Shown here piece after piece: positions 28,004 to 48,671 of a stretch of DNA of 64,000 bases. A program made the position numbers and the translations under genes. Source of the DNA: Desulfobaculum xiamenense (GTDB taxonomy: Bacteria; Desulfobacterota; Desulfovibrionia; Desulfovibrionales; Desulfovibrionaceae); NCBI RefSeq assembly GCF_011927665.1, contig NZ_JAATJA010000002.1:806001-870000 (forward strand), in the 5' to 3' direction. How positions within the stretch are numbered: the stretch's first letter is position 1; the number at the start of each line of letters is the position of its first letter. The notes below the pieces were generated by a model, which saw only the letters and a list, made by a program, of their open reading frames with translations, ran no database searches and had not been told where the DNA came from.

Positions 28004-28465
28004 TCAGGTCGGGACGCTAAACGGCCGGTGGAAGTACAGAATGTTGTAGATGAAGTGGAGCAGGATGCACAGCGGCAGGCTGCGGTGGCGATCCCACGTC
28101 AGGCCGAAGGCGATGGATGGCGCGAAGGTCAGCGCGGCCCAGAGCGGCGGGTGCGCGATGAGGTGCAGGGCGGCGAAGAGCACGGCGGCCGCCACGTTGG
28201 CCGAGCTGAGCGGAAGGTGCTTTCCGGCGGGAAGCACGTGGGCCAGTGTATCCTGCACGCCGAGCCGGAAGACCGTTTCCTCGACGGCGGCCTTGAAGAG
28301 CAACGCACCCACCGTGATGCCCGCATGGGGGCGGGGCAGGGCGAAGGCCACTGCGCCCAACGCGACAAGGGCCAGGAACAGCGGATCGCGTAGGCCGCGC
28401 CCGAAGCGGAGTGCCTGATCGAGTACGGGGTGCGTGTTGTCTTCGTGTGTCATTTTTCGATGCAT
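28004..28465 (-). CDS. CPBP-family intramembrane glutamic protease (sorting-protease candidate)
   Basis: 153 residues with about four membrane segments. All three CPBP (Abi/CAAX) motifs are present: EETVFR (E62, E63, R67), FAALH (H101) and HFIYN (H137, N141). It is first in the leftward gsp operon. Small CPBP proteases are the partner enzymes of several C-terminal sorting signals (MYXO-CTERM, Synerg-CTERM, JDVT-CTERM), and T2SS linkage is a feature of such systems and of rhombosortase. A protein with a matching kind of C-terminus is encoded at 46521-48671. The start is uncertain: ATG 28465 or 28453, neither with a good ribosome site. Confidence 0.85.
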   Translation of the reverse strand: MHRKMTHEDNTHPVLDQALRFGRGLRDPLFLALVALGAVAFALPRPHAGITVGALLFKAAVEETVFRLGVQDTLAHVLPAGKHLPLSSANVAAAVLFAALHLIAHPPLWAALTFAPSIAFGLTWDRHRSLPLCILLHFIYNILYFHRPFSVPT

Positions 28466-28551
28466 TGGCAAAATCGTATTCCGGCTCCGCGATGTTGGCG
28501 TTTTCGCCGCTGGAACGCGTTGCGAGTTTGTGCAGGAAATCTGGAACGCTA

Positions 28552-28580
28552 TTGTGGTAATCTCTCAAATCGCTTATATG
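28552..28580 (+). promoter_or_regulatory. Possible gspC-D-E promoter
   Basis: TTGTGG (28552-28557), a 17-bp spacer and TATATG (28575-28580) lie about 50 bp before gspC, in the region separating the two divergent gsp operons. Box agreement is moderate. Confidence 0.4.
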
Positions 28581-28628
28581 GTGGTTTGATGGAGAAGCCT
28601 CTCATTACGGAGGTATAGCACAAAAACG

Positions 28629-29417
28629 ATGAAGTTCAATACGTTGAAATGGGTGTGGCCCATACTTGTGGGATTGTCGGCCGCTTATGCGGCCGGAGCC
28701 TTCGCCGTGCCGGTGGATGTTCCGCCCCGCCCCGAACGCGGTGGGGATGCCCCTGCCGTGGCGGCGGAGCGGAATCGGCTGGTGGCCGACATTCGCGAGC
28801 GCAATCTGCTGGGGCTGGCCATCCCCGCCCCGGCCGTCGCTGCGGTGGCGGTTGCCGCGCCGGTGGGCGTCGATCCCGCCTCGTGGCGGCTTATGGGGAC
28901 GGTGCTCGGCGAGCCGTCGGTGGGGTTGTTTCTCGTCGGTGGTGAGTTCAAGGCTCTTGCGCTGGGGCACGACGAGCAGGGCTGGACCCTTGCCGCCGTG
29001 AACGCCACGGGTGTGCTGTGGCGACAGGGCGCGGTCGAGAAATCCGTCGATCTGCGCGATCAGGCTGCGACCCCGCTGGCCATGGAGGTCCGCCGCTCCG
29101 TGGAGGTGAGCCTCGACGGCGAGAAGGTCGCGCCCTACCTGCGCGACCCCACCCAAATGCTCAACCACGCGAATTTCAAGCCTTATCGCGAGAATGGGGA
29201 GGTCATCGGCTTCCTCGTCAACAACATCAAGAAGAAGTCCATCCTGCGCACCATCGGATTGCAGGACGATGACATCCTCATCCGTATCAACGGCCGCCGC
29301 ATGGACGGCCCGCATAAGTTGCTCATGGCCTATGGAGAGATGAAGCCCGGAACCACCGTGACCGTGGACGTGCGGCGCGGGGGCGAGGTGAAGACGTTCC
29401 TGCTCAATATCGACTGA
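28629..29417 (+). CDS. gspC: Type II secretion system protein GspC
   Basis: 262 residues: one N-terminal helix (WVWPILVGLSAAYAAGAFAV), the HR domain around RLMGTVLGEPSVGLFLV, and a C-terminal PDZ domain (FKPYRENGEVIGFLV, LQDDDILIRINGRRM). GspC connects the inner-membrane platform to the secretin. A GGAGG lies about 15 nt before the ATG, farther than normal, so initiation may be weak. First gene of C-D-E. Confidence 0.92.
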   Translation: MKFNTLKWVWPILVGLSAAYAAGAFAVPVDVPPRPERGGDAPAVAAERNRLVADIRERNLLGLAIPAPAVAAVAVAAPVGVDPASWRLMGTVLGEPSVGLFLVGGEFKALALGHDEQGWTLAAVNATGVLWRQGAVEKSVDLRDQAATPLAMEVRRSVEVSLDGEKVAPYLRDPTQMLNHANFKPYRENGEVIGFLVNNIKKKSILRTIGLQDDDILIRINGRRMDGPHKLLMAYGEMKPGTTVTVDVRRGGEVKTFLLNID

Positions 29418-29470
29418 TCGTGAGGCCGGTACGTTGCCGGTACAAGCTGAAGCGCAGGGGGAAGCACGAG

Positions 29471-31591
29471 ATGAGACACGCGTTCGGGACCGCCTTTCTG
29501 AGTTGCCTGCTCCTCACACTCCTTTCCGGCGCGGCGCTGTGCCAGGAGGGAAAGAACGTACAGGCCAACCTCGATAACATCCTCATTGGCGATCTGGTCA
29601 AGTTCGTGGCCAACTACACCGGGAAGAACTTCGTCTACGACGAGCGCATCCCCGAGCAGCGGGTCAGCATCTACTCCAAGGAGCCGGTCAGCGAGGCCGA
29701 GCTGATGACCATTCTCCGCCACATGTTGCTACTCTCCGGGTACGACGTGGTGGTGAAGGACGACGTGCACTACGTGGTGCGCCGGGGGCAGGTGAAGGAG
29801 ATCGGCGACACGCTCTATCCGCAGCTCGGCCCCGGCGGAGACGACGAGCGCATCACCGTGTTCTACAGGCTGGAGGGCGGGCTCGACCCCAAGACGGCGG
29901 CCGATCTGGTCAAGACCATGGTCAGCCCCGACTATGGCGCGGCGCTGCCGGTGCCGCAGGCGCGGGCACTGCTCATCAGCGACAAGCGGCTCATGGTGCA
30001 GCGCATGGTCGAGGTGCTCGACTCCGTGCCCATCACCCGGCCCAACTGGGTGCTGGAACTCATTTCCCTCGAAAAGGTGAAGGCCATGGACGCCCAGCGC
30101 CTGCTGGCGAAGTTCTATGGTGACCTCGAAGCCAAGGGCTTCAGCGGCGAGCCGCCCCTGAGCTATGTGCTCGGCTGGTCCAACACGGTTCTGGTGGCCG
30201 GTCTGCCCGCGCAGGTGACCGAGGTGAAGAAGCTGTTGCACCGCATCGACACCGGCGAGGAAGTGACCTCGAACTACAAGATTTATCGGCTCAAGAATTC
30301 CAAGGCCAGCGCCGTGGCTGAAGTTCTTTCCGCGCTTGGCGCGAAGCTTGAGGAGTCGTCCCTGAATTCGTCTGGCGAATCGTTGGGGGCGGAAGGTGAC
30401 GGCGCAAAGGGTACGTCCTCGCGCTCGTCGCACAAGAAGGAGCGCGAGGAGGAGAGTTTCCTCGTCTCCGCCGATGTGGACACCAACACCCTCGTCGCCC
30501 TTGGCGACCCGGATTTCCTTGCGCGGGTGGACGCCATCGTGGCTGAACTGGACCGTCCGCTGGATCAGGTCTTCGTGGAGGCGCTCATCCTTGAAACGAG
30601 CCTCGAAAACGCCCGCAGCTTCGGCGTGGAATGGTTGGCCGGTGGCGGAGGCAGCAACATCGGCGGCAGCATCGGCTTCGTCGACAAGGACGGCTCCCTG
30701 CTCAACTTCCAGGCTCCGACGCTCAAGGAGGATCCTGAAAGCCCGGCCTTCTCCGAATTGCCCGGCGGATTCACCCTTGGCGTGTTGGGCGACGTGGTGA
30801 CCTACGACGGCGTGCGCTATCCGTCTCTCGGGGCGCTCATTACATACCTCAAGTCCGCTACGGGCGTGAACATCCTGTCCACACCGCAGATTCTCACCGT
30901 GGATAACTCTGAGGCCGAAATCTTCGTTGGTGAGGAGCGTTTCGTGACCGAGGGCAAGACCGTCACCGACGGCGGTAACTTCCAGACCCAGTATCGCGAG
31001 AAGGAAATCGGCGTGAAGCTCCGCGTGACTCCGCATATCAACGCCGAGGATGGACTCATCCATATGGACGTCTATCAGGAGGTGTCCAACGTCGTTCAGT
31101 CCCTGACGAAGGAGGTGAGCCTGCCGGTGACAACCAAGCGCAACACCAAGACCTCCGTGCAACTGCTCAACGGGGCGACTATGGTCATCGGCGGTCTGAT
31201 TCAGGACGACTTGAACCGCAGGCAGAAGGGTGTGCCCGGCGTGTCGGACGTGCCGCTTCTGGGGTGGTTATTCAAGACGCGCGGTACGTCGGCCACCAAG
31301 CGTACGCTCATGCTCTTTGTGTCCGCGCGCATCGTGCATACCAAGGACGATGCCGAACGTCTGAGCCGTCGCAAGATCGACGAGGCGCGCCGCCAGACGC
31401 GCGAGGTACAGGACGCCATCAATCAGGAGTTCGACCTCGATGAGGACGAGATTCCTCCGAATCCCGTGGACGAGAGCATCCGCACGTTCGGTACCGAGGG
31501 CGAGCTTCCGAAGCCGCCTGCGGATGCCGGTGCCTTGGCACCCGCCGCACGGGGCGAGGTGGATGAAACACCCATTCAGGAAGGGAACTGA
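29471..31591 (+). CDS. gspD: Type II secretion secretin GspD
   Basis: 706 residues: signal peptide (FGTAFLSCLLLTLLSGAALC), N0 domain (ILIGDLVKFVANYTGKNFVYD), N1-N3 domains, a Ser/Glu-rich insertion around residues 310-345, and the secretin barrel domain (DQVFVEALILETSLENARSF, VNILSTPQILTVDNSEAEI, GATMVIGGLIQDDL, VPLLGWLF). An acidic, Pro-rich tail follows. Forms the outer-membrane channel. ATG 29471 has GGGGGA upstream and a proper signal peptide; the earlier frame from 29420 does not. Confidence 0.96.
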   Translation: MRHAFGTAFLSCLLLTLLSGAALCQEGKNVQANLDNILIGDLVKFVANYTGKNFVYDERIPEQRVSIYSKEPVSEAELMTILRHMLLLSGYDVVVKDDVHYVVRRGQVKEIGDTLYPQLGPGGDDERITVFYRLEGGLDPKTAADLVKTMVSPDYGAALPVPQARALLISDKRLMVQRMVEVLDSVPITRPNWVLELISLEKVKAMDAQRLLAKFYGDLEAKGFSGEPPLSYVLGWSNTVLVAGLPAQVTEVKKLLHRIDTGEEVTSNYKIYRLKNSKASAVAEVLSALGAKLEESSLNSSGESLGAEGDGAKGTSSRSSHKKEREEESFLVSADVDTNTLVALGDPDFLARVDAIVAELDRPLDQVFVEALILETSLENARSFGVEWLAGGGGSNIGGSIGFVDKDGSLLNFQAPTLKEDPESPAFSELPGGFTLGVLGDVVTYDGVRYPSLGALITYLKSATGVNILSTPQILTVDNSEAEIFVGEERFVTEGKTVTDGGNFQTQYREKEIGVKLRVTPHINAEDGLIHMDVYQEVSNVVQSLTKEVSLPVTTKRNTKTSVQLLNGATMVIGGLIQDDLNRRQKGVPGVSDVPLLGWLFKTRGTSATKRTLMLFVSARIVHTKDDAERLSRRKIDEARRQTREVQDAINQEFDLDEDEIPPNPVDESIRTFGTEGELPKPPADAGALAPAARGEVDETPIQEGN

Positions 31592-31593
31592 GC

Positions 31594-33084
31594 ATGCCCG
31601 TTGGCGAAATCAGGCTGGAGAGCCTGCCGGACGCGGCGGTGAAGGCCTACCTGTCCTTCCCGCAGCGCAACGAGTTCCTGCCCGTGGGCATGGATGACGA
31701 GCAACTGACGGTGTGGGTGCTCAAGGAACGAGCGCTGGCGCAGGCCGACTATCTGGGCTGGATGCTCGGGTGCGGCCTGCGTACGGAGCTGGTGCCCGAG
31801 GAGAGCTTCTACCCCGCCCTCGAAGAGGCACTGGCCCTGTGGGAGGAGGAGGGCGAGCAGGACGGCGCGGACCACGACGACATCGACATCGGCGACGACA
31901 GTCAGGAACTGCTGGGCTGGGGGCACGACGACGCGCCCATCGTCCGCCTCGTCAACAAGACCATCCAGCAGGCCGTGAGTCAGGGCGCGTCGGACGTGCA
32001 TTTCGAGGCCAGCGAAGGGCGTTTCATGACGCGCTTCCGGCTGGACGGCGTGCTGCACACCGTGCGGCAGCTAGATCGGCGGCTGCAACCCACGGTCCTC
32101 GCGCGGATTAAGGTCATGGCCGAGATGGACGTGGCCGAAACGCGCGCCCCGCAGGACGGACGCATCCGCGTGCGCGTGGGGCACAAGGACGTGGACATTC
32201 GCGTGTCCACGGTGCCGACTCTCAAGGGCGAGAAGGCCGTGCTGCGAATTCTCGACCGCTCCAAGACCGTGCTTTCGCTGCCGGACCTCGGGCTGGAAGG
32301 CGACAATCTCGCGCTGTTTCGGCAGGCCGCGTCCGCGCCGCACGGCATCCTCCTCGTCACCGGTCCCACCGGCAGCGGCAAGACGACGTCCCTCTATGCG
32401 GCGCTGTCGGAACTGGTGAACGAGACGAGCAACATCATGACCGTCGAGGACCCGGTGGAATATCATCTCGACGGCGTGAATCAGGTGCAGGTCAACCGCG
32501 CTGCGGGCGTGACCTTTGCCGGGGCCATCCGCGCCTTCCTGCGGCAGGACCCGGACATCATCCTCGTCGGCGAAATCCGCGACGAGGAGACGGCCAGCAC
32601 GGCCATTCAGGCCTCGCTCACGGGCCACCTCGTGCTGGCGACGCTGCATACCAACGATGCGCCCACCGCCGTAACGCGCCTTCTGGAAATGGGCATAGAG
32701 CCGTTTCTCGTGGCGTCGTCCCTGTCTCTGGCCATGGGCCAGCGCCTTGTGCGGCTCAACTGTCCGCAGTGCGCCACGCGGCGTCCCGTGGACGAACAGA
32801 CGCGGCGGCTTCTGGGCGAGGCCGGGGCCGCAGTCATGGAGCAGGTCGTTTCCGAGGGGTGCGAGCACTGCATGCGCACGGGCTTCCGGGGGCGGCAGGG
32901 TATCTTCGAACTTCTGCCCGTGGACGAGGGGCTGCGCAGCCTTATCCTCGCCAAGTCCAGCGTGGACAGGCTTCAGGACTACGCGCGTGGTAAGGGCTTT
33001 GTGACCATGCTCGAACACGGGTTGAAGCTCGTGGCCGCCGGACGAACCACAGTGGAGGAAGTACTGCGCGTCACGCGTCTGTGA
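31594..33084 (+). CDS. gspE: Type II secretion ATPase GspE
   Basis: 496 residues. Walker A GPTGSGKT at 257-264, Asp box VEDPVEY, Walker B DIILVGEIRDEET near 321-333, His box LATLHTNDA, and the zinc tetracysteine CPQC...CEHC near 390-430. It is the cytoplasmic hexameric ATPase that drives pseudopilus assembly. ATG is 2 bp after the gspD stop. Its 3' end overlaps the convergent VanZ-like gene by 14 bp. Confidence 0.97.
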   Translation: MPVGEIRLESLPDAAVKAYLSFPQRNEFLPVGMDDEQLTVWVLKERALAQADYLGWMLGCGLRTELVPEESFYPALEEALALWEEEGEQDGADHDDIDIGDDSQELLGWGHDDAPIVRLVNKTIQQAVSQGASDVHFEASEGRFMTRFRLDGVLHTVRQLDRRLQPTVLARIKVMAEMDVAETRAPQDGRIRVRVGHKDVDIRVSTVPTLKGEKAVLRILDRSKTVLSLPDLGLEGDNLALFRQAASAPHGILLVTGPTGSGKTTSLYAALSELVNETSNIMTVEDPVEYHLDGVNQVQVNRAAGVTFAGAIRAFLRQDPDIILVGEIRDEETASTAIQASLTGHLVLATLHTNDAPTAVTRLLEMGIEPFLVASSLSLAMGQRLVRLNCPQCATRRPVDEQTRRLLGEAGAAVMEQVVSEGCEHCMRTGFRGRQGIFELLPVDEGLRSLILAKSSVDRLQDYARGKGFVTMLEHGLKLVAAGRTTVEEVLRVTRL

Positions 33085-36242: not shown

Positions 36243-37448
36243 TTATTTGACCAGCGTGGTCAGGTTGAAGATGGGTTCGAGGATGGCCACCACGATGAAG
36301 GCGATGACGAGGCCCACCCCGAGGATGAGCAGCGGCTCGGCAAGGGCGACGATGCGTTTGAGCACGTTGTCCACGTCGCGCTCCATGATGCCCGTCACGC
36401 GGGTGAGGAACGGGCCGAGTTGGCCGGTGCGCTGGCCCGAGGCGAGGGTGAGGATGTAGACTTCGGGAAAGATGCCCTGCGCTTCGAGAACCTTGTCCAG
36501 CGGACGCCCGGCGGCGACCTCCTGTCGCGCTTCGAGAATCTTTGCCCGCAGGAAGGGCGACGGCACCGCCCGCGCCGAGCTTTCCATGGCCTGCACCAGC
36601 GGGATGCCCGCCTCGATCTGGAAGCCGAGCAGGCCCGAGAAGCGGGCGAGCAGGAACTTTTGGACCACGGGAATCCGCCACGTCATGCGCGAGAGCAGAA
36701 GCCCGGCCGCAGGGATGCGCCGCACCGCCGCCACAGCGCCGAGCGCGAGGGCGAGCGGAACGAGGAGCACGCCCGCGCCGAGGGATTCCATGACCCCGCT
36801 CACGGCGAGAAGCATGCTGGTGGTGGCGGGGAGCTCGCTGCCCGATGCCTGAAAGATCGTGGCGATCTTGGGGAGCACGTTGGCCAGCAGGAACCACACC
36901 GCGCCAAGCCCCACACACAGGATCACCCCCGGATAGGCCATGGCGGTGGCCAGACGCCCCTGCACCTCGCTGCGGCGCTCTTCGTTGCGGGCCACCTGTT
37001 CGAGCACTGCGCCGAGGCGTCCGGTGCTTTCCGCGACGCGGATCATGCCCACGTACACGGCCGGAAACTGGCGCGGATAGTCCTCCAGCGCGCGGGAGAA
37101 GGGCGTGCCCTGTTCCACCTTGTCGCGGATGTCGAGCCAGATGCGCGAGCCGCGCCCCGTGGTCATTCTGCCGATGAGGTCGAGGCCCTTGGCGAGGGAA
37201 TGCCCGCTCTGGATGAGGATGCCGAGGTAGTAGAACGATTCCGAGATGCGGATGCCGCCCTTGCCGATGAGGCGGGACAGCATGGCCCCCGGCCTGGCGG
37301 AGCCGCCCTCGGCCACCGGCGAGAACTTGAGCGGCGTCAGCCCCTTGTCGCGAAGCATCGTCATGGCGCGTGCGGGGCTGTCCGCCTCCACGTATCCCTT
37401 CGTCTTCCGGTTGTCGGCGTCGAATGCAACGTAGTGGAATGTGGGCAT
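36243..37448 (-). CDS. gspF: Type II secretion inner-membrane protein GspF
   Basis: 401 residues: an N-terminal YVAFDADNRKTKGYVEADSP domain and two GspF (PilC-like) domains, each a helical bundle with FPAVYVGMIRVAESTGRLGAVL and FPEVYILTLASGQRTGQLGPFL signatures, and three membrane helices ending IVVAILEPIFNLTTL. Platform protein of the secretion machine. It stands apart from gspC-D-E, converges on the transglutaminase-like gene with an 11-bp gap, and faces the oligosaccharyltransferase operon across 225 bp. Confidence 0.96.
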   Translation of the reverse strand: MPTFHYVAFDADNRKTKGYVEADSPARAMTMLRDKGLTPLKFSPVAEGGSARPGAMLSRLIGKGGIRISESFYYLGILIQSGHSLAKGLDLIGRMTTGRGSRIWLDIRDKVEQGTPFSRALEDYPRQFPAVYVGMIRVAESTGRLGAVLEQVARNEERRSEVQGRLATAMAYPGVILCVGLGAVWFLLANVLPKIATIFQASGSELPATTSMLLAVSGVMESLGAGVLLVPLALALGAVAAVRRIPAAGLLLSRMTWRIPVVQKFLLARFSGLLGFQIEAGIPLVQAMESSARAVPSPFLRAKILEARQEVAAGRPLDKVLEAQGIFPEVYILTLASGQRTGQLGPFLTRVTGIMERDVDNVLKRIVALAEPLLILGVGLVIAFIVVAILEPIFNLTTLVK

Positions 37449-37516: not shown

Positions 37517-37673
37517 GTGAGAATCGGATTTGTCCCTGACACTCTGACGGCATGCGTCGATTGTTCCGCTTTTCGTCCTGCCCGAACATGTGCGGGAGGG
37601 CGGTCACACGACACGGTACATGCTTTTTGCGGAAAAAGGCAAGCCAGGCTTCACGTTACGCGGGAGGTTCCAG

Positions 37674-39788
37674 GTGCGTTTTCGCGGTGAGATGGTGCTC
37701 GTGGCCCTCTGGGTGTGCATTTCCTTCTGTGCCGGATTTGGCGTTAGGGCGCTGGATGCGCCCAAGTGGGACAGGCCGGACCTGTTCGTCGACGGGCGGC
37801 GGGTCATGGCCACGCATGATGCCTATGCGTGGCTGGCCGGAGCGCGAGGCGTCGGCCTTGGCACCGGAGCGCCGCTGGCGCGCGTTGTCGAGGTCGTCTC
37901 CGGTGTGACGGGGGCGGAGCCGGAATCGGTCGGCTTTTGGGCACCGGCCGTGGCCGGGGGGCTGGTCTCCGTCGTCGCGGCCCTGTGGGCGCTGGCTCTT
38001 GGCGCTCCGGAGGCCGCGCTGTGCGCCGGAATGCTTTCGTCCCTCGCTTCGGGATATTTCCTGCGTAGCCGCCTCGGCTACTATGACACGGACATGGCGA
38101 CGCTCCTGTTTCCGCTGGCGCACTGCCTGCTTCTGGCGGTGTGGCTTTCGCCGTGGCTGCGTTCGCCGCTGACAATCCTCACCCGCAGGCCGGACTCCGA
38201 TCCGGACAGCGAGCCGCCCGGACCGGGCTGGCCCTTCGGCATCGGCGCGACGGCCGTGCTGCTGGGCGGGCAGTGGCATCACGACATTCCCAATGCCTAT
38301 GCGGTGTCGTTCATCATTTCGGCGGGCCTCGTGGTCCTGCTCGGGTATCCGCGCTACCGTACGCGCCTGATGCTGGGGCTGTGCATCTACGGGCTGGCCG
38401 CCTTGCACGGCATGATCGGGCTTGCCCTCGCGGCGGGGCTGTCTGTCGCGCTGCTCATGCGTCCGCAGTGGGAGCTTTTGGCCACGCGCCGTAGCGCGCT
38501 GGTGGCGGGATTCCTGCTCGCGGTGCTGGTGCTGGCTCCGCCGGTCCTTGGCCTAGGCGGTTCCGTGGCGAGCAAGGTGCAGCTCTATGCCAAGGCCTCG
38601 GCCGTGGACCTTTGGGACGCCTCCCAGCGCGAGGCCGACGGGGCGCAGAACGCGTCCGCGCCGGTGTATCCCGACGTGGTCCAGAGCATCATTGAGGCCG
38701 GAAACGTCACCCCTTCGGAAACCATTGAGCGCATGGGCGTTTCGACATGGGCGGCCGTGGCCGGACTGGCGGGCTTCGCCGTGCTGGTGATCGTGCGGCC
38801 ATCGGCGCTGTTCCTGCTGCCTCTGGCTATCCTGTCGTTTTTTGCCATGAAGTTCGGGTCCCGGTTCTCGATGTTCGGCGGCCCGGTGGTGGCCATCGGG
38901 CTGGCCGTGCCGCTGGCGCTGTGGCTGGCCCATGGCGGCGGCGTGCGCCGACGCGTGCTTGCGGGTGTGGTGACCACGGGCATCGGCCTCGCGGCGCTCA
39001 TCCCGGCCGTCTCGGGCTATGCGGACATTCCCGTGGCCTCCGTGCTGCGCCCCCAGCACGCGCAGGCACTTGAACGGCTCGAAGAGACTCCTCGCCACTC
39101 CGTGATCTGGACGTGGTGGGATTACGGCTATGCGACGATGTTCTATGGCGGACGGTGGACCTTCGCCGACGGCGCGCGTCATACGGGGCGTTTTCTGTAT
39201 CCGCTGGCGCGCGTTCTCGCCACGCCAAGCCCGATGCAGGCGGCGCAGATTATGCGTTACAGCGCCATCTTCCGTGGCGAGCCGTGGGACAAGTGGGACC
39301 GCATGAGCGCCGAGGACGTGCGGGATTTCGTGGATTCCCTCGCCACGCAGGAGATTGTTCCGCCGATTCCCGTTCCGCGCTATCTCGTGGTGGCGTGGGA
39401 GAATTTGGCGTTGGCCTCGTGGATCACCTACTTCGGATCATGGGACCCCGTGGCAGGAACCGGGCGGCATGCCCTGTGCCGCATGCTGCGCGGCGACTTC
39501 AGTGTGGATTTCGAGACCGGCATCCTGACTATGGACGGCTCGTCCGTGCGGCTCGCCACTGTGGACGAACTGACGGGGGAGGGGCGGGACTACCACTCCT
39601 ATGGCGGCGGGCGGCTGCATCTGGTCATCAACGAACCGGCCTCGCAGGCGTTCGTGATGGATGATGCGGCGTATCACAGCATGCTGGTGCAACTGCTCAT
39701 CACTCCGCCGGGAGAGAAGGGGCTGGAAGGCTCCTTCCGGCTGGTACACGAGGGTTTTCCGTTCGTGCGCATCTACGAGGGACTGTAG
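37674..39788 (+). CDS. STT3/PglB-type oligosaccharyltransferase, paralogue 1
   Basis: 704 residues: 12-13 membrane helices, then a C-terminal periplasmic domain. GT-C catalytic signs: D49 in THDAYAWL (first periplasmic loop), D138-x-D140 in GYYDTDM, a Glu in the SETIERM loop, and the acceptor-binding WWDYGY at 481-486. It should transfer a lipid-linked glycan en bloc to Asn of N-X-S/T sequons in exported proteins. GTG 37674 has GGGAGG 6 nt upstream; an open frame runs further back without a site. First of six genes in an operon. Of the three paralogues, this one departs most in the SVSE-type loop. Confidence 0.9.
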   Translation: MRFRGEMVLVALWVCISFCAGFGVRALDAPKWDRPDLFVDGRRVMATHDAYAWLAGARGVGLGTGAPLARVVEVVSGVTGAEPESVGFWAPAVAGGLVSVVAALWALALGAPEAALCAGMLSSLASGYFLRSRLGYYDTDMATLLFPLAHCLLLAVWLSPWLRSPLTILTRRPDSDPDSEPPGPGWPFGIGATAVLLGGQWHHDIPNAYAVSFIISAGLVVLLGYPRYRTRLMLGLCIYGLAALHGMIGLALAAGLSVALLMRPQWELLATRRSALVAGFLLAVLVLAPPVLGLGGSVASKVQLYAKASAVDLWDASQREADGAQNASAPVYPDVVQSIIEAGNVTPSETIERMGVSTWAAVAGLAGFAVLVIVRPSALFLLPLAILSFFAMKFGSRFSMFGGPVVAIGLAVPLALWLAHGGGVRRRVLAGVVTTGIGLAALIPAVSGYADIPVASVLRPQHAQALERLEETPRHSVIWTWWDYGYATMFYGGRWTFADGARHTGRFLYPLARVLATPSPMQAAQIMRYSAIFRGEPWDKWDRMSAEDVRDFVDSLATQEIVPPIPVPRYLVVAWENLALASWITYFGSWDPVAGTGRHALCRMLRGDFSVDFETGILTMDGSSVRLATVDELTGEGRDYHSYGGGRLHLVINEPASQAFVMDDAAYHSMLVQLLITPPGEKGLEGSFRLVHEGFPFVRIYEGL

Positions 39789-39792
39789 CGCC

Positions 39793-40968
39793 ATGCGGAT
39801 TCTGCATCTCGGCAAGTACTACGCCCCGCATGCGGGGGGCATCGAGAACTTCGTGGCGGACCTCGCTCGTGAGCAGGTTCGCGGCGGCGACGAGGTCATG
39901 GTCCTCGCTCACGGGGATCGGCCGTTCGCGCCGCCCCTCACGGAGGTCATCCACGGGGTACTCGTGCGCCGGGTGCGGACTTTCGGAACCCTTGTGCACA
40001 CGCCGCTTTCGCCGGGCTTCGGCTGGGAGCTGGCGCGTGCGCTGCGTTCGTTTCGACCCGATGTGGTCCATGCCCATGTGCCGAACGTCTCGGCGTTCTG
40101 GATGCTGTTGGCTCGCAAGTCCATTCCGCTGGTGCTGCACTGGCACTCCGACGTGGTGCCCTCGGCGCACGATGCGGGGCTGCGCCGCCTCTACGCTCCC
40201 TATGCCGTATTCGAGCGCATGCTGCTTGAGCGGGCGGACGCGGTGATCGCCACGTCCGCACCGTACATGCAAACCAGCGCCGCCCTGCGGCGGGTGCGTG
40301 GCAAGTGTCGAGTGGTGCCGCTTGGCGTCGCTCCTGAGCGCGTGGAGTTTTCCCTTCGGGAGCGAGATGGCGCGGGGCGCGGCCGGGTGCCCATGGTGCT
40401 CGCGGTGGGGCGGTTCGCCTACTACAAGGGCTTCGAACATCTGGTCCATGCCATGCGTGGGCTGGAGGACGCCCGGCTGGTCATCGCCGGGGACGGACCC
40501 ATGCGTGGGCGTGTCGAGGCGTTGGTGGACGCGCTGGAGCTTGGCTGCCGCGTGTCGCTGCCCGGTCGGGTGAGTGATGAGGAATTGCGGCGGCACTGGT
40601 CGGAGGCGACGGTGTTCTGCCTGCCGTCCATCGAGCGGACCGAGGCTTTTGGGGTGGCCATGGTCGAGGCCATGGCCTACGGGCTGCCGGTTGTATCGAC
40701 GGACATCCCCGGTTCCGGCGTCGGGTTCGTCAACCACCATGGCGTGACGGGACTGGTGGTCCCGCCGGGAGACGCTTCCGCGCTTGCGGACGCCATCGGC
40801 ACACTGCTTGATGATGCTGCCGGTCGCGAGGCAATGGGGCGTGCGGCCCGCAAGCGCTTCGACGAATTCTTCCACATAGGTCCGGTGCGCGAGAGCGTTT
40901 CGGACGTGTACGGCGAGCTGCTCGGGCATGTCGCGATGCCCCTGCGGCAAACGGCGGAGGCGCGATGA
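39793..40968 (+). CDS. GT4-family glycosyltransferase
   Basis: 391 residues with two Rossmann domains. The N-terminal half has MRILHLGKYYAPHAGGIENFV and HAHVPNVSAFW. The C-terminal half has the nucleotide-sugar site VLAVGRFAYYKGFEHLV and the EX7E element ERTEAFGVAMVEAMAYGLPVV. It would add a sugar to the growing lipid-linked glycan at the cytoplasmic face. The ATG is 4 bp after the paralogue-1 stop, and its own stop overlaps the next start. Confidence 0.92.
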   Translation: MRILHLGKYYAPHAGGIENFVADLAREQVRGGDEVMVLAHGDRPFAPPLTEVIHGVLVRRVRTFGTLVHTPLSPGFGWELARALRSFRPDVVHAHVPNVSAFWMLLARKSIPLVLHWHSDVVPSAHDAGLRRLYAPYAVFERMLLERADAVIATSAPYMQTSAALRRVRGKCRVVPLGVAPERVEFSLRERDGAGRGRVPMVLAVGRFAYYKGFEHLVHAMRGLEDARLVIAGDGPMRGRVEALVDALELGCRVSLPGRVSDEELRRHWSEATVFCLPSIERTEAFGVAMVEAMAYGLPVVSTDIPGSGVGFVNHHGVTGLVVPPGDASALADAIGTLLDDAAGREAMGRAARKRFDEFFHIGPVRESVSDVYGELLGHVAMPLRQTAEAR

Positions 40969-42956
40969 CGGCGATGCGGCATGCGACATGGGGATGGACG
41001 GCCCTCTTCGTTCTCGCCTTTGCCTACGGGCTGGCGAGTTTCGTGGACGATTGGCTCTTCCTCGGCAGTCAGCCGCTGTTCCTCTACAACGGTGCGCCCA
41101 TGCTCCGCGCCACGGACGGCTATCATTTTCTCGATCTGGCCCGTGGTGTGTTCGAGGGCCGCGCCGCGCCCACGGCGGTGCCGCTTCTTTCCGCCTTGAC
41201 GGCGTGGGTGGCGATGCTTTCCGGCGTGGGGCTTGAAACCGTGGCCTGCCTCGTGCCGCCGGTGGTGGCCTCGCTGACGGCGTGCGTCTATGTGCTCTGG
41301 GGGCGGACGCTGACCGGGAATCCCGGTGCGACGCTCATCGCGGCGGTCATCGGGCTGTCCGTTCCCTACTGGCACGTGCGGGCCAACGTCGGCTACCTCG
41401 ACACGGATTGCCTGAACATTCTGCTGGTCGGGCTGGGATGCTGGCTGTTCATGCGCTTCGAGACCGACACCGGGCAGCGGCGCTTCGTGTGGCTGGGCCT
41501 CATGTGTGCGGTGCTTGGCGTCTTCGTGTGGTGGTGGCGGGCCGGGGCGGCGGTCTTCGCCGGGCTGGTGGCCTGCTGCCACGTGCTGTCGCTGCCGTTT
41601 GCGACCACTCGCGCACAGCGTGCCTCGCGCATCGCCCTTGCCGCACTCATGGCCTGTGGGTTGGCGGCGTATCTCGTGGGCGGGTTGGCGGTTTTTCCCG
41701 TGTGGGCCGTGGTGCCCATGGAGGCCGCGCTGAACCATTTGCATCTCGTGATGCATGGGGAGGAACTGGTCTATCCGTCGGTCGCCGTCTCCATTGGCGA
41801 ACTCAAGCCGCCGGACTTTTCGGAGATATCTGGATACGTGGGCGGCTGGCTTCCCGCGTTTCTCGTGGGAATGATCGGTGCCGGGCTGGCGGTGTGGCGC
41901 AGACCGAGACAGTGTCTGTATTTGCTGCCGCTTGCTGTGCTTGGCACCATGGCCTTCCTTTCCGCGCGCTTCATGCTGTTTCTGGTGCCCGTGGTAGGGA
42001 TTGGCGTTGGCGTGGCGGTTCATGAGGCGTGGGTCCTTGCGGCGCAGGTGCGCAGGTGGCGACGCGTCGCGCAGGGGGCGGTGGCGCTGGTCGCTCTGGG
42101 CGTTGTGTCGGTGCCGGTCATGGGGGCCTTCCACAGCGCGACACCGCCCGTATTCGCTAAGCCCGAGGCGCTTCTCGCGTCGGTCCTGCGCGAGGCTCCG
42201 GCCGGGGACACGGTGGTCTGGGCGTGGTGGGACTACGGCTACATGCTCAAGTATTTTTCGGGGCGTAGGCCCTATTTCGACGGTGGCAGTCAGGACCCCG
42301 TCAACACCTTCACCGCCGCATGGGCGCTGGCCGCTCCGGACGAGGCGCAGGCGCGCAACCTGATGCGCTTCTTCGCCGCGCGTGGGCCGGGGGCGCTGGG
42401 CTACATCCAGATGATGCTCGGCACGCCGGAGCGCACAGTGGAATTCCTGAAGACGGTCTTCGCCGAGGGGGCGGACGTGCCGGGCATCCTTGCCGGGTAT
42501 GGATTGCAGCAGCCGGAGCTTGCCGAATTTCTGTTCCCCGAGGCGGACGTGTATGTGTACCTGCCCATGAGTTCCATGGATAAGGCCCCGTGGATCTATT
42601 ATTTCGGGCGCTGGGACGTGGGCGGCGGACAGGGCGTGAAGCCGGTCTTCGAGACGTTGCCGCGCTCCGAGTACCGCCTGCGCCTGCGTAGCGGCCGGCT
42701 GGTGGGCGGCGGCACGGACCGCGCGCTGTCCTGCGTCATCCATGTGGGACCGGACGGGGTCGGCGTGCGGCGTTTCGACGCCGGGGGCGAGGCGGCTGTG
42801 GTGGACATCGCCGCGTTGCCGCACCTGTTCCTCGTCGATGGCGCGTATCTCGACACCACGTTGTTTAGGCTGCTGTTCATCCAGCCCAACGGAACGCGGC
42901 ATTTCCGTCCCGTGGTCTACGATTCGAGGTTTGGAGGCGTATGGCGGGTGATCTAG
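40965..42956 (+). CDS. STT3/PglB-type oligosaccharyltransferase, paralogue 2
   Basis: 663 residues, multi-pass membrane GT-C enzyme. D51 in ATDGYHFL, D146-x-D148 in GYLDTDC, E279 in the SVSE-like loop SIGEL, and WWDYGY at 421-426 are all present, so it looks active. The C-terminal periplasmic part is shorter than in paralogue 1. The ATG overlaps the GT4 stop (ATGA). Sequence outside the motifs differs strongly from its two neighbours, so these are old duplicates rather than recent copies. Confidence 0.9.
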   Translation: MTAMRHATWGWTALFVLAFAYGLASFVDDWLFLGSQPLFLYNGAPMLRATDGYHFLDLARGVFEGRAAPTAVPLLSALTAWVAMLSGVGLETVACLVPPVVASLTACVYVLWGRTLTGNPGATLIAAVIGLSVPYWHVRANVGYLDTDCLNILLVGLGCWLFMRFETDTGQRRFVWLGLMCAVLGVFVWWWRAGAAVFAGLVACCHVLSLPFATTRAQRASRIALAALMACGLAAYLVGGLAVFPVWAVVPMEAALNHLHLVMHGEELVYPSVAVSIGELKPPDFSEISGYVGGWLPAFLVGMIGAGLAVWRRPRQCLYLLPLAVLGTMAFLSARFMLFLVPVVGIGVGVAVHEAWVLAAQVRRWRRVAQGAVALVALGVVSVPVMGAFHSATPPVFAKPEALLASVLREAPAGDTVVWAWWDYGYMLKYFSGRRPYFDGGSQDPVNTFTAAWALAAPDEAQARNLMRFFAARGPGALGYIQMMLGTPERTVEFLKTVFAEGADVPGILAGYGLQQPELAEFLFPEADVYVYLPMSSMDKAPWIYYFGRWDVGGGQGVKPVFETLPRSEYRLRLRSGRLVGGGTDRALSCVIHVGPDGVGVRRFDAGGEAAVVDIAALPHLFLVDGAYLDTTLFRLLFIQPNGTRHFRPVVYDSRFGGVWRVI

Positions 42957-45019
42957 GCATACTGCGGCGCTGCGAGACGGTGGGACTCGACGAGAGCAGG
43001 CCCCTGCTGGTCCTCGGCTGGGTGCTCTTTCTCGCGTACCTGTGCGCCGTTCTCTATGTCCAGCATTGGAACACCGCCGACAACGCCGCGAACTTCGCGG
43101 AGGAGGGACGTCCGCTCCTGCGCAATCTCGATGGGTACTACTACCTGCGCCTCGCGCGGGAGATGAACGAGGGTGTGTACGCGCCCGTGGACGAACTTCG
43201 CGGCGCGCCAAGGCCGTATCCGCCGCCCCTTCTCGCTGCGCTGACGGCGTGGGTCCATAACGGCGTTGGCGGGAGCTACGAGGCCGCGGCCTACGAACTC
43301 CCCCCCATGCTCGCCATGAGCCTTGCGCTGCTGCTCATGCTGGCGGGGCGAATGCTCGGGAATGCGTGGACGGGACTGGTGGCGGCGTTCGCGGCCTTTT
43401 GCGCGGAGCACTGGATGATTCGCGCCGGACCGGGATTCTTCGACACGGATTGCCTGAATCCGTCGCTGGTGCTCGCCGCCGGGCTGTTTCTGTACGGATT
43501 CGTGAGCGAGCGGGGACGCGCCCGCTGGTGGCATTTCGGATTCATGGCCCTCACGTGGACCGTGCTGGCGGCGTGGTGGCATGCGTGGGTGGCTCCGGCA
43601 GCGGTTGCGGCCGTAGCCTATGCGCTGACCGGGCACCTTCCGGTCCATCGCTTCGAGCGCGGGGTGAAGCTCATCATCGCCGCCGCGGCCGTGGCCTGTG
43701 TGGGCTTTCTGGCACTGTACCTCGGCGGGGTGGTCGATACCGGGCCGCGCATGCTGCTTTCCGCCGCAGACCATCTGCGGCTGGTGGCGGGGATGGATGC
43801 TTCGTCCATGCCGGACGTCGGGCGTTCGGTGCAGGAACTCGGGACGGCGGACATGCAGGACGCCGGGGCGGCCATCCTTGGCGGCTGGGGGGCGGTGTGC
43901 CTTGCTTTGGTCGGGCTGATCCACCTTTCGGTCCGCCGACCGCTGTTCGTGCTCTGTCTGCTGCCGTGCATGGCGCTTGGCGCGGTGAGTGTGTTCTCGT
44001 CGCGGTTCTACATCTTCGCCACGCCGGTGCTTGCGCTTGGATACGGGCATCTGGCCGTCTCCGCGGCGCGGCTGTTCCGCATGCCGCAGTTGGCCGCCGT
44101 GCCCGGCCTGCGCGATGCCATGCTCGCTCTCGCCTTTGTCGCGCTACTGGCCCCCGGCATGGTTCGCTGCGCCACGCGCTGGGTCGGCCCCGCCGTGAAC
44201 GCGGGGGACGTGCAAGGCATCCGGGCGCTCGCCTCGGAGATGCCCGCTGGCGGATGGGTCTGGAGCTGGTGGGACTACGGCTACATGATCCAGAACTACG
44301 CGGGGTTGCCCACCGTGTGCGACGGCGGGCGCACCGGACCGGGGCTGCTCTTCGCCACGGCCTATCCGCTGGCGCAGGACGATCCGGGAACCGCGGCGCG
44401 CTGGATGCGCTTCATCGCGCGCCATGGCGAGGGTGGTATGGACATCCTCGCGGAGGTACTCGGGGGGCGCTCTGGCGTTCTCGCGCTGGTGGACGAGGTG
44501 TTCGCCGATCCGCAGGGTGCGCCGCAGGCCTTTGCGCGGCGGGGAATACCGTGGGGCGACGACCTGCGCGAGTTTCTGTTTCCGGATATCGCCGTGGGGG
44601 TGTTTCTCAATGGGCGGACCCTCGATATGGCCTACTGGTGGGACTATTTCGGACGCAGGGCGCCAAGGGGCATTGATCCCACGGGGCGCGGGTTCGTCAT
44701 CGACAGGCAGCCCCTCGCCGAGCTTGTCCCGGACCGGGCGGCCGGGCGCGTGCGCTACGCGGGGCGGGGGGATGTGGAGGTCGGCGGCATGGTGGATGTG
44801 CGGGACGGGCAGGTTGCCGTGACGGAGACGGGGCAGCCGGGACCGGTGTTCATAGCCGTCCATGACGAGAAATTCGGGTATTTCGTGAGCAGGAGACTGT
44901 TCGATAGCGTTGCGCTGCGTCTGCTGTTTCGGCCGGAGAGCACGCGTGGGCATTTCAGGGCCGTGAGCGTGCGGCCGGGGCACGGCGGCGCGTGGCGCGT
45001 GATCGGGGAGGCATCGTGA
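42941..45019 (+). CDS. STT3/PglB-type oligosaccharyltransferase, paralogue 3
   Basis: 692 residues, multi-pass. D64 in LDGYYYL, D168-x-D170 in GFFDTDC, E299 in the SVSE-like SVQEL loop, and WWDYGY at 443-448. All catalytic positions expected of PglB are kept. Its start overlaps the end of paralogue 2 by 16 bp, so translation is coupled. With the other two copies it would allow transfer of different glycans, or to different sequons, but which is unknown. Confidence 0.9.
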   Translation: MAGDLGILRRCETVGLDESRPLLVLGWVLFLAYLCAVLYVQHWNTADNAANFAEEGRPLLRNLDGYYYLRLAREMNEGVYAPVDELRGAPRPYPPPLLAALTAWVHNGVGGSYEAAAYELPPMLAMSLALLLMLAGRMLGNAWTGLVAAFAAFCAEHWMIRAGPGFFDTDCLNPSLVLAAGLFLYGFVSERGRARWWHFGFMALTWTVLAAWWHAWVAPAAVAAVAYALTGHLPVHRFERGVKLIIAAAAVACVGFLALYLGGVVDTGPRMLLSAADHLRLVAGMDASSMPDVGRSVQELGTADMQDAGAAILGGWGAVCLALVGLIHLSVRRPLFVLCLLPCMALGAVSVFSSRFYIFATPVLALGYGHLAVSAARLFRMPQLAAVPGLRDAMLALAFVALLAPGMVRCATRWVGPAVNAGDVQGIRALASEMPAGGWVWSWWDYGYMIQNYAGLPTVCDGGRTGPGLLFATAYPLAQDDPGTAARWMRFIARHGEGGMDILAEVLGGRSGVLALVDEVFADPQGAPQAFARRGIPWGDDLREFLFPDIAVGVFLNGRTLDMAYWWDYFGRRAPRGIDPTGRGFVIDRQPLAELVPDRAAGRVRYAGRGDVEVGGMVDVRDGQVAVTETGQPGPVFIAVHDEKFGYFVSRRLFDSVALRLLFRPESTRGHFRAVSVRPGHGGAWRVIGEAS

Positions 45020-46100: not shown

Positions 46101-46122
46101 CGCGTCCGCGCGATTCGCATGT

Positions 46123-46156
46123 AAAGGGGGTGGCCAGTTTGGACCACCCCCTTTTT
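46123..46156 (+). terminator. Terminator of the oligosaccharyltransferase operon
   Basis: Stem AAAGGGGGTGG (46123-46133) with CCACCCCCTTT (46144-46154); T run overlaps the 3' arm. Confidence 0.9.
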
Positions 46157-46520
46157 GCGTGTATTGACATGGGCTTGGAATGTTTTGCGATTTGGATGAC
46201 GATGTATTTTTTCAGTAAAAATGGGTTGTTGAATGCAATATACTTCAAAACATATGTAGTGATAGTAAGTTACGAGGTAAGATGTGTAGGCATGTTTATC
46301 CAAAAAGTGTTGAGTGACGCATATTTTTTGAGGTGCGTATTGAATCGACATGAAAAGTAAGGTAAAGTGGTCGCTATGTGTAGGCTAATGCGCTGCATTC
46401 ATTGGCTTATGCATGGTGTTTGTTGGAGTTGTGGCGTTTGTGGGAAGTTTTTCCAATCAAATCGAGGGGTAGGCTCTGTTCGCAAGGCAATAATTTTCAA
46501 CATACAAAGGAGAGGTGGCG
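46157..46520 (+). other. AT-rich leader region before the surface-protein gene
   Basis: This 364-bp stretch is much richer in A+T than the rest of the window. It contains a perfect TTGACA (about 46164-46169) without a good -10 box at 16-18 bp, several A/T runs and no recognisable gene. The strong AAAGGAG at its end serves the ATG at 46521. It probably holds the promoter and a long untranslated leader; no clear riboswitch or paired structure was recognised by eye. Confidence 0.5.
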
Positions 46521-48671
46521 ATGAGGAAGAAACGGTTGGTTTGGCTGCTCACTGTGAGCTTCGTTGTGATGGCGAGTGCCGCGCTCGCGGGAACGCCCCC
46601 GTCGATCCTGAATGGCACCAAATGGACATTCACCGGTATCCAGTTCACGGGTGAATCGAACACGACCTCCACTCCGTCCGTCTTCTGGGGAGGGGATATC
46701 CAATCCTATGCGCCGAACGATGACCCGACCACGACGACCCAGAACAACGGCTTCGGTACCGCGTCGACCGCGGACGTGACGGTGTTCAACTTCGCCGGCA
46801 CCTCCACCACGGACATTGCCGCTGGCGCTGTGGACTTCGCCAACAACGCCACGAAGTGGTACGGTGGCTCGTGGGCCTTCGAGGGCGATCCCGGCAACCT
46901 GACTGACGACGACTGGGATGGAACCACCAATTCCTACGGTCTCGACGGTCTCGTCCGCCTGGACAACTACGCCCAGAGCGTCGACAACACCACGGACTAC
47001 TTCGACTACAACTTCATCAGCAATCAGGACTTCAGTCTGTTCGCGGGCATCGGTCGCACGCCCATCGACAGCACGGCAATGCCGTTTGCCGATGGTCCGA
47101 GCTTCGGCGTGATGTTCCAGAACCAGTCCATCTCCAACAACACGACCTTCGGGTCGTCCACGTGGTACTACTATGCCTACGCCGCCGAAGGCGATGGTGA
47201 CGACGATGGCGCTGCCTACCTCGGCACCCTGACCTTCAACGACGGCGCGTGCAAGCTGTACAAGTTCGACACCGGTTCGAGCACCGGCGCCGCTGTCAGC
47301 ACCGAAACCACCTTTAACAGCACCGTGACCACCGGCTACGTGGAAGTGACCACCACCGGCACGGCGCCCATCAAGCTGTTCTCCAAGGCCAATCTGAGCA
47401 AGAACGGCAACATCCTCGCGGGTTACGGCGTGGACGCCAACGCGCGTCTGCTGCACGCCATCGCCCTGAAGGACGCCGAACTCCTTGCGCAGACCGACTT
47501 CGATAACGACTCCAAGACGTTCGTTGGCATTGGCAAGGGCTTCGCCAGCGCGGTTTCCAGCGAGAGCAACGCGACCGCACAGGGCCGCATCGGCAAGTTC
47601 CTGCTGTCCGACAATGAGGTGACCGACGGTAACGCGACCTACGTGTGCTGGAACGCCACCTCCGATGACGCCAACGGGACCACCCTCTCGCTGGCCGACA
47701 TGGACGAGATGACCTTCAGCGTGGCCACGTCTTCGAGCCTCGCTGGCGTAACCCACGGCAACGCAACCCTGCTCGACGCGAGCGACGGTTACTTTGCGCA
47801 CTTCCTTGGCCGCAAGGTTGACGACGTGGTCGTCGGCATCTGGGTTGCGGCTGGTACGTCGAACTCCACCACGGCCTACGGCGCGGCAGGCGACAAGACC
47901 CTTGGCATGGTCGTCATGACCGATGTGGCCTTCGTTGTTCCCGCTGCCACGGCTACCACTTCGGCGGACATCACCACGATCCTGAGCGCCTTCGGCACTC
48001 TGGCCTCCGGCGTGACCGTGCGTGCCGCAACGGCCATCGACACGAGCAACATTCCTTCCGACGCCAGCGCGGTGCTGAACAAGTCCTCCGATGACCTCGT
48101 GACGCAGTTCGGCCTGTCCAGCAGCGCCGTGGTCACGAACCTGACCTCCTTCGTGGCGACCCTGCCTGCGGCGACCAACCCCGGCGATCTGTGCATCTTC
48201 CAGCGCGCGATCGACGGCTCGCAGGTCCATGGCAAGGTTCCGTCCGAGATCGGTACCTACACGAAGTTCTACACCGCTGCCCGTGCGGCCGTGAGCGGCG
48301 TCTCGTCCGCCCAGACCGCCAACAGCACGTCGTCCTTCACCTACAACCCGGGCACCAGCACCCTGGCCGAAGGCCAGTACTGGCTGTCGTTTAGCACGGC
48401 GCCTGGCTACTTCATCCCGAGCAACTTCCAGCTCAACCAGGCCTTCGACTACAACCTGTACTTCACCATCGCCGACAATGGTGCGTACGATGCCGACACC
48501 ACGGCCGATCAGATCACCGATCCGAGCGGCTTCGTGAGCGGCGTGTCGTCCACCTCCGGTGGCGGTGACGGTGACGGCGGCTGCGTGTTCAACCCGGCTG
48601 CCGCATGGAGCATCGAACTGGTGCTCATGCTTCTCGTGCCCATCGCCTATCTCGTCCGCAGAAAGAGATAA
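46521..48671 (+). CDS. Exported sequon-rich protein with C-terminal Cys/transmembrane/Arg anchor
   Basis: 716 residues. A signal peptide (KKRLVWLLTVSFVVMASAALAG) leads a Thr/Ser/Asp/Gly-rich body with no family I recognise. About twenty N-X-S/T sequons occur, four with an acidic residue at -2 (ESNTT, ESNAT, DGNAT, DANGT), the site preferred by bacterial PglB. The end is a Gly/Asp-rich spacer, GGC with Cys688, VFNP, a 15-residue hydrophobic segment and RRKR at the very C-terminus: the layout of a C-terminal sorting signal. ATG 46521 (8 nt after AGGAG) is preferred to GTG 46515. It is directly downstream of three oligosaccharyltransferases and may be their substrate. Confidence 0.85.
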   Translation: MRKKRLVWLLTVSFVVMASAALAGTPPSILNGTKWTFTGIQFTGESNTTSTPSVFWGGDIQSYAPNDDPTTTTQNNGFGTASTADVTVFNFAGTSTTDIAAGAVDFANNATKWYGGSWAFEGDPGNLTDDDWDGTTNSYGLDGLVRLDNYAQSVDNTTDYFDYNFISNQDFSLFAGIGRTPIDSTAMPFADGPSFGVMFQNQSISNNTTFGSSTWYYYAYAAEGDGDDDGAAYLGTLTFNDGACKLYKFDTGSSTGAAVSTETTFNSTVTTGYVEVTTTGTAPIKLFSKANLSKNGNILAGYGVDANARLLHAIALKDAELLAQTDFDNDSKTFVGIGKGFASAVSSESNATAQGRIGKFLLSDNEVTDGNATYVCWNATSDDANGTTLSLADMDEMTFSVATSSSLAGVTHGNATLLDASDGYFAHFLGRKVDDVVVGIWVAAGTSNSTTAYGAAGDKTLGMVVMTDVAFVVPAATATTSADITTILSAFGTLASGVTVRAATAIDTSNIPSDASAVLNKSSDDLVTQFGLSSSAVVTNLTSFVATLPAATNPGDLCIFQRAIDGSQVHGKVPSEIGTYTKFYTAARAAVSGVSSAQTANSTSSFTYNPGTSTLAEGQYWLSFSTAPGYFIPSNFQLNQAFDYNLYFTIADNGAYDADTTADQITDPSGFVSGVSSTSGGGDGDGGCVFNPAAAWSIELVLMLLVPIAYLVRRKR

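Follow-up and report, generated by a model that had tools for sequence, protein, structure and literature searches.

The window analysed here, a stretch of 64,000 nucleotides from Desulfobaculum xiamenense (contig NZ_JAATJA010000002.1, positions 806,001 to 870,000 of the forward strand), encodes a CPBP-type glutamic intramembrane protease (mrtJ), components of a type II secretion system (T2SS), three STT3/PglB-type oligosaccharyltransferases (OSTs) and a 718-amino-acid (aa) surface protein precursor with a C-terminal sorting signal. These genes probably constitute a cluster for secretion, glycosylation and anchoring, in which the 718-aa protein would be exported by Sec, N-glycosylated, cleaved by MrtJ and displayed by the T2SS. 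The proposal was built on the gene content and motifs of the window, the gene order in relatives, the co-occurrence of the C-terminal tail with the protease and an excess of N-X-S/T sequons in the tail proteins.

The protease and the C-terminal signal

Judged by its sequence, the protease is an MrtJ-type CPBP glutamic protease of the myxosortase family. The open reading frame (ORF) scored 76.9 bits on NCBIfam NF033192, narrowly above the cut-off of 75, and the same protease reached 77.4 bits in a six-frame search of the genome; the match to PF02517 (CPBP / Rce1-like) was 49 bits against a cut-off of 22.4. Translation of the ORF yields 155 aa if it starts at a TTG and 153 aa if it starts at the in-frame ATG that follows; the product contains the motifs EETVFR (EExxxR), F-x3-H (FxxxH) and H-x3-N (HxxxN), the residues of which were invariant in alignments of 15 and of 20 sequences, the window's included. 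Among PDB entries the predicted structure (pLDDT 89.6) matched SpdC best (Z 10.5), followed by Rce1 with Z 9.0 and, well behind, by an entry at 4.8; for helical bundles a Z of about 10 is by itself weak evidence, and the assignment is carried by the sequence match. The cut-off of the MrtX family was missed by the window protease (22.5 of 180 bits).

The 718-aa protein ends in GGGDGDGGC-VFNPAAAWSIELVLMLLVPIAYLVRRKR. Its length is counted from a GTG start, an ATG two codons further in being better spaced, and the signal peptide was read by eye. None of the NCBIfam sorting signals matched the window tail at cut-off, and the protein did not reach the score for membership of choice-of-anchor U (Table 1). 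The looser features of JDVT-CTERM are present: a Cys, a hydrophobic helix, a basic end and an MrtJ in the same genome. We call the tail JDVT-like, and not a member of JDVT-CTERM, because the window-type tails and the gammaproteobacterial tails beside MrtJ share the Cys and the spacer and differ in the second half, and because the score lies below the cut-off.

A set of 21 tails, the window's included, was gathered in the search for homologues of the 718-aa protein (set A1). Their consensus is GCV[FL]NPxAxF[GS][LI]EWLLLL followed by an Arg/Lys end; the pattern used for selection required a Cys, so the invariance of this residue is partly due to selection. At E<=10 the JDVT-CTERM model matched 11 of these tails (best 1.8e-6), Synerg-CTERM six, MYXO-CTERM three and GlyGly-CTERM one.

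A preliminary description, made from the letters of the window, had pointed to a 153-residue CPBP protease (counted from the ATG) with all three motifs at the head of the leftward gsp run and, some 18 kb away, to a signal-peptide protein ending in a Gly-rich spacer, GGC, VFNP, a hydrophobic segment and RRKR; both identifications were borne out. It had left the signal family unnamed. This stands insofar as no family is over its cut-off, and the tail can now be placed as JDVT-like and the protease named MrtJ. The OSTs and the sequon excess formed no part of that description.

Co-occurrence of the tail and MrtJ

Of 99 genomes, eight (the window's own included) encode a homologue of the 718-aa protein; all eight have MrtJ, in comparison to 20 of the 99 overall. 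The pairing was then assessed in 297 genomes of the order Desulfovibrionales, drawn from a larger group, 17 of which belong to one genus. The profile used (A3) comprised 19 tails over 36 positions: the window's, 17 contributed by homologues of the 718-aa protein and one detected next to MrtJ (G096). It omitted three tails of A1 (that of the organism's own S8 protease, L060 and L061), its ends were trimmed and the genomes that donated rows are among the 297; because the window tail sits in the profile, its own A3 score is uninformative.

A3 matched tails in 34 of the 297 genomes at E<=0.01, and MrtJ was present in 37 genomes at >=70 bits or 36 at the family cut-off of 75, the 70-bit line having been chosen after the table was seen and admitting G025 at 70.1. 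In counts compiled by hand from the profile-search tables, tail and MrtJ (>=70 bits) occurred together in 32 genomes, the tail alone in two, MrtJ alone in five and neither in 258 (Fisher p 2.6e-35). At the curated 75 bits G025 becomes tail-only and the figures are 31/3/5/258. Without the 17-genome genus p was 7.6e-19, and at genus level the counts, in the same order, were 11/2/4/38 (p 7.5e-7). With 32 of 34 tail genomes having MrtJ, the window tail is not a chance sequence. The five genomes with MrtJ alone (G062, G085, G095, G253 and G179) also gave no JDVT match at E<=0.1, and JDVT-CTERM was above its cut-off in just 5 of the 39 genomes having tail or MrtJ.

The association is visible within genera as well: both elements are present in the window's genome (G000) and absent from G001, the only congener sampled; G189 likewise has both, and the other g22 genomes seen had no tail match and no MrtJ at >=70 bits, some showing only weak CPBP matches. 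Up to 10 tail matches were found per genome (G017, G199). Contig C40 of G017 carries five in approximately 12 kb (242813-254098), and in G199 (C1:257345-260080), with like pairs in G163 and G241, two matches are separated by about 2-2.6 kb and seem to share one long frame. Some tails may therefore be internal and the matches are not all separate proteins; an internal tail has been reported for one MYXO-CTERM protein (PMC11980579).

Gene order in relatives

In genus g8, 15 of 17 genomes have the genes for MrtJ, GspD, GspE, an STT3-type OST and the tail protein next to one another and in the same orientation. In the exceptional G181 the run is split into MrtJ-GspD-GspE and OST-tail, the latter pair staying together. 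The OST adjoins MrtJ in G152, where the tail gene is on the same contig approximately 27 kb away. In G024 a single stretch carries, all in the same orientation, the genes for an OST, GspF, GspE, GspD, GspC and the tail protein; MrtJ of this genome is encoded on a separate contig, next to a second OST gene and further gsp genes. According to distances compiled by hand from profile-search coordinates, an over-cut-off GspD lies within 25 kb of MrtJ in 24 of the 37 MrtJ genomes.

A scan of named bacterial genomes gave 78 MrtJ loci, of which 11 had gsp relatives within reach; these neighbours were sought by blastp with the window proteins over <=10 kb, and many contigs were shorter. All seven Deferribacterota loci have mrtJ upstream of, and co-oriented with, gsp genes (gspD, gspE and gspF recognised in seven, gspC in six). 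Gammaproteobacterial loci and those of Nitrospira and Aquificota showed no gsp relative within <=10 kb, save for L215, the record of which is named only Proteobacteria, so the T2SS linkage is a trait of some groups and not of the whole MrtJ family. A tree of 99 MrtJ sequences, built quickly and with no bootstraps, requires 7 changes of the T2SS label, in comparison to 20.1 with shuffled labels, and groups the seven Deferribacterota sequences in a (starred) clade apart from those of Desulfovibrionales.

The Deferribacterota tails are of another subtype. A3 matched one of the seven genomes, partially and at E 0.03. With the JDVT model at E<=0.1, a threshold that also gave matches in 2 of 14 control genomes, all 12 named genomes searched had a match, seven over cut-off; each of the seven Deferribacterota genomes had a JDVT-like tail at this threshold, two of them over cut-off. 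These tails read GGGGGGCSAGG... and similar, and the gammaproteobacterial tails beside MrtJ (L187, L191, L194) read GC[ST]...[FL]DPxLP.

Oligosaccharyltransferases and sequons

The three window OST genes are placed between gspF and the tail gene, and the PF21436 domain was over its cut-off in all three products (64.2, 55.0 and 38.7 bits). They form one run (37590-45019, + strand) with a glycosyltransferase-like ORF between; the genome has five STT3 matches.

The 718-aa protein contains 20 N-X-S/T sequons, in comparison to 9.3 in shuffled sequences and 11 reverse motifs. For 18 tail proteins of the fetched stretches, including that of G181 and that of G152 (not beside its OST), the sum was 378 sequons against 188.5+-11.7 in shuffles, with 166 reverse motifs; these sums treat homologous proteins as independent. 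A further sum, over other tails collected by a loose pattern, was set aside, as its list included the window protein, proteins truncated at the N-terminus and two window ORFs (51202-53964 and 53977-55260) that do not encode tail proteins. The excess above both shuffles and the reverse motif was seen in the window protein and in those of G024, G025, G028 and g8. It was also present in L060 (14 vs 5.3), L068 (11 vs 5.8) and L070 (14 vs 6.6), which are not known to adjoin an OST. Among control proteins, GspD had 62 sequons vs 89 expected, the OSTs 57 vs 57 and GspC 0 vs 2.5. The sequon excess is thus strongest in the OST-linked protein family, neither confined to it nor universal in it.

In an alignment of 19 tail proteins, identity to the window protein was 21-30% for the 18 others. 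Of the 415 sequons in these proteins, 319 have the form N-X-T, in comparison to 55% Thr among Ser and Thr, and 19 have an acidic residue at -2. The Thr bias and the rarely acidic -2 position fit the specificity reported for Desulfovibrio PglBs, which glycosylate a minimal N-X-T with relaxed demands at -2 (PMC4894442).

A second MrtJ in the genome

At L005 5271-9362 (G000:C2) the genome contains a second MrtJ, a 195-aa ORF directly upstream of a 1097-aa S8 protease (subtilase) that ends in GGGGGCTVGGGSDVGTALLLLAALVIVIRRTRALRQ, a different Cys tail (GCTVG..SDVG). Similar tails are present in G189 (L155) and G241 (L134). There may be two protease-substrate pairs in one cell; the single over-cut-off MrtJ of G241 accompanies both tail types, so strict specificity is not implied. 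A third, weak CPBP locus of the window's genome is L006.

Proposed pathway

From the observations above we infer the cleavage, the lipid, the glycan, the T2SS passage and the order of these steps. Sec would export the 718-aa protein, the C-terminal helix holding it in the inner membrane, where in the periplasm an STT3/PglB-type OST from the same region would N-glycosylate its many N-X-T sites. The conserved Cys would probably be lipidated first, by an enzyme such as Lgt, and MrtJ would then remove the C-terminal helix at or just after this Cys. The T2SS would carry the protein across the outer membrane, and it would stay there as a surface glycoprotein.

The scheme follows the published working model for the related MrtX (PMC11980579), in which Sec export and anchoring by the tail are followed by lipidation of the Cys, for which an Lgt-like enzyme is predicted, then by proteolytic cleavage and finally by transport through the T2SS. 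According to the same source MrtX cleaves MYXO-CTERM in a Cys-dependent manner and works in E. coli, and its substrates use the T2SS. Extended by a step of N-glycosylation, this model accounts for the genes of the window and their arrangement.

The preliminary description had proposed that the protease processes the 718-aa protein after T2SS export. The pairing of protease and tail is supported by their joint presence in 32 genomes and the linkage in g8; the second MrtJ beside a Cys-tail subtilase leaves the assignment to the linkage in relatives, and the cleavage stays a prediction. The suggested timing does not agree with the MrtX model, which places the cut within the inner membrane and ahead of passage through the T2SS (PMC11980579). 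The link to the T2SS was upheld by the gene order in g8 (15 of 17) and Deferribacterota (7 of 7). Tails without the protease and the protease without tails, named there as evidence that would speak against the pairing, were limited to two of 34 tail genomes and five of 37 MrtJ genomes. The search it recommended for more such tails gave in the window's own genome the window protein alone (the S8 tail, omitted from the profile, was unmatched), and tails were found elsewhere in the order.

Alternative explanations

Several observations weigh against the proposed pathway. The window tail missed the JDVT-CTERM (NF033191) cut-off of 27, with 9.8 bits for the trimmed tail and no match for the whole 718-aa protein, and the plain JDVT-CTERM name was rejected on this score. 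The tail gene lies 18 kb from mrtJ on the opposite strand and behind a terminator-like repeat, so the two are not in one operon; the adjacency of substrate gene and mrtJ in the two-gene MrtJ/JDVT system as described was thus not found, the only detected tail protein of the window being this distant one. The second MrtJ beside its own Cys-tail subtilase means that the assignment of the window tail to the window MrtJ rests on linkage in relatives. In 13 of the 37 MrtJ genomes, most of genus g48 included, no over-cut-off GspD lies within 25 kb of MrtJ. Of the two tail-only genomes, G119 has a weak partial match, but the tail of G033 (C56:89671-89769, SCAANPAAGFGLEW...) is convincing, and this genome is 99% complete with no MrtJ match. 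Concerning glycosylation, little or no sequon excess was seen in the tail proteins of G181 (13 vs 12.2 expected) and G152 (16 vs 11.8), and none in the organism's own S8 protease (3 vs 4.2) or the G017 tails; the cytoplasmic control GspE showed an excess (53 vs 30); and STT3 occurs in 199 of the 297 genomes, so common that its presence alone says little.

The points on glycosylation would be expected if MrtJ cleaved the tail and the OSTs and sequons were unrelated to it, the OSTs belonging to a surface-polysaccharide region and lying there by chance and the sequons reflecting an Asn/Thr-rich composition. Such an explanation appears unlikely, if the most serious of the alternatives, given that in 15 of the 17 g8 genomes the OST gene is kept between those for GspE and the tail protein, that the OST-tail pair is kept in G181 (though the G181 tail protein shows no excess), and that the sequon excess over shuffles and the reverse motif, with its N-X-T bias, extends across proteins so little identical to the window's. 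It is less probable still, and in our opinion improbable, that MrtJ is a T2SS accessory for another substrate, such as the S8 protease, and that the 718-aa protein has a plain, uncleaved C-terminal membrane anchor. The second Cys-tail protein and second MrtJ of the genome and the five MrtJ genomes lacking a detected tail could be read this way; the joint presence of tail and MrtJ in 32 genomes and the position of the tail gene inside the MrtJ-T2SS run in most g8 genomes argue against it.

An enzyme of another class, for instance a rhombosortase acting on a GlyGly-CTERM-like signal, might be considered because of the Gly-rich spacer, the T2SS and weak rhomboid-type matches in the genome. It is very improbable and was rejected, since no rhombosortase is above the curated cut-off in the window's genome (best 28.1 of 84 bits) and GlyGly-CTERM matched a single one of the 21 tails, in comparison to 11 for JDVT-CTERM. 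Secretion, N-glycosylation and MrtJ-dependent anchoring of the 718-aa protein thus remains the reading that we consider probable.

Organization of the window

The positions of the relevant features are given in Table 1. The gsp genes to the left of mrtJ follow the predicted lipoprotein gene on the same strand, and gspC, gspD and gspE run divergently from mrtJ. Relatives of the lipoprotein adjoin MrtJ/T2SS genes in L028, L035 and L038. A transglutaminase-core protein, its start lipobox-like by eye, is encoded between gspE and gspF (33800-36232, + strand). Just 5' of the tail gene, at 46124-46500, lies a terminator-like inverted repeat (identified by eye) and then an AT-rich stretch, so the tail gene is probably its own transcription unit.

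Table 1. Features of the window, with positions counted from its first nucleotide
Feature	Position	Strand	Basis or remark
Prepilin peptidase (GspO-like)	20606..21292	-	Peptidase_A24
gspM-like	22161..22661	-	T2SSM, below gathering score
gspL-like	22663..23766	-	PilN domain; position
gspK (ORF as listed; true start further in)	23780..25441	-	T2SSK_1st PF21687
gspI/J-like pseudopilin (ORF as listed)	25329..26057	-	N_methyl
gspH-like pseudopilin (ORF as listed)	25706..26269	-	N_methyl
gspG (ORF as listed; true start further in)	26134..26751	-	T2SSG PF08334
Predicted lipoprotein, 477 aa, between mrtJ and gspG	26547..27980	-	lipobox by eye; no Pfam match
mrtJ, predicted CPBP glutamic intramembrane protease, head of leftward T2SS gene run	28004..28471	-	NF033192, PF02517, predicted structure
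gspC	28629..29417	+	PDZ_2; position
gspD secretin	29420..31591	+	Secretin; TIGR02517 above cut-off at G000:C2:835567-837363
gspE ATPase	31594..33084	+	T2SSE
gspF	36243..37448	-	T2SSF
STT3/PglB-type OST 1	37590..39788	+	PF21436, PF02516; WWDYG; relatives adjoin tail protein
STT3/PglB-type OST 2	40965..42956	+	PF21436, PF02516; WWDYG
STT3/PglB-type OST 3	42941..45019	+	PF02516, PF21436; WWDYG
Surface protein precursor, 718 aa: signal peptide, 20 N-X-S/T sequons, C-terminal sorting signal	46515..48671	+	
Choice-of-anchor-U-like region, residues 601-674	48315..48536	+	NF041766 24.7 bits, below cut-off 32
C-terminal sorting signal: Gly-rich spacer, GGC-VFNP, hydrophobic segment, RRKR; Cys = residue 690	48558..48668	+	common to relatives' tails

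Relation to known systems and significance

By its genes the system is a predicted MrtJ/JDVT-like sorting system embedded in T2SS and OST clusters. With MrtJ/JDVT-CTERM (NF033192, NF033191) it shares a protease over the MrtJ cut-off and tails with a Cys after a Gly/Ser-rich spacer, a helix and a basic end, but the second half of the window-type tails reads [GS][LI]EWLLLL in contrast to the gammaproteobacterial [FL]DPxLP. MrtJ has been described with one JDVT protein and as sporadic in beta- and gammaproteobacteria (PMC11980579), whereas here it stands in T2SS/OST clusters and in genomes with as many as ten tail matches. CPBP-protease protein sorting in prokaryotes was first shown for MrtX/MYXO-CTERM; the CPBP core, the Cys tail and T2SS dependence (reported for MrtX, predicted here from gene linkage) are common to both systems (PMC11980579), which differ in that the window protease scores under the MrtX cut-off and comes from another phylum. 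The rhombosortase/GlyGly-CTERM system of Vibrio cholerae likewise connects a C-terminal tail with T2SS cargo that stays on the cell surface (PMC13393428; PMC11980579), but its enzyme is a rhomboid serine protease and not of the CPBP type. The OSTs resemble Desulfovibrio PglB in the STT3/PglB core with WWDYG, and the N-X-T preference of the latter matches the sequons of the tail proteins. A literature search, at the level of its listings, found no link of PglB to the T2SS or to a C-terminal sorting enzyme, and no MrtJ-T2SS-OST link.

We lean, if only slightly, towards a wider formulation, namely that Desulfovibrionales possess a three-step display route in which an OST, a myxosortase-type protease and the T2SS would act in turn on a dedicated and densely N-glycosylated protein with a new Cys-signal subtype, the A1 consensus given above, all encoded as one unit, and that the presence of MrtJ in T2SS clusters of two phyla would make the coupling of a sorting protease to the T2SS a general design and not a myxobacterial peculiarity. 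The gene order in two phyla is genetic evidence for such a protease working with the T2SS, and N-glycosylation would be added to the pathway. A function can be proposed for a protein family in which most tails score below the JDVT-CTERM cut-off, and in the compact clusters cleavage, lipid attachment, glycosylation and export could be studied jointly on a single protein.

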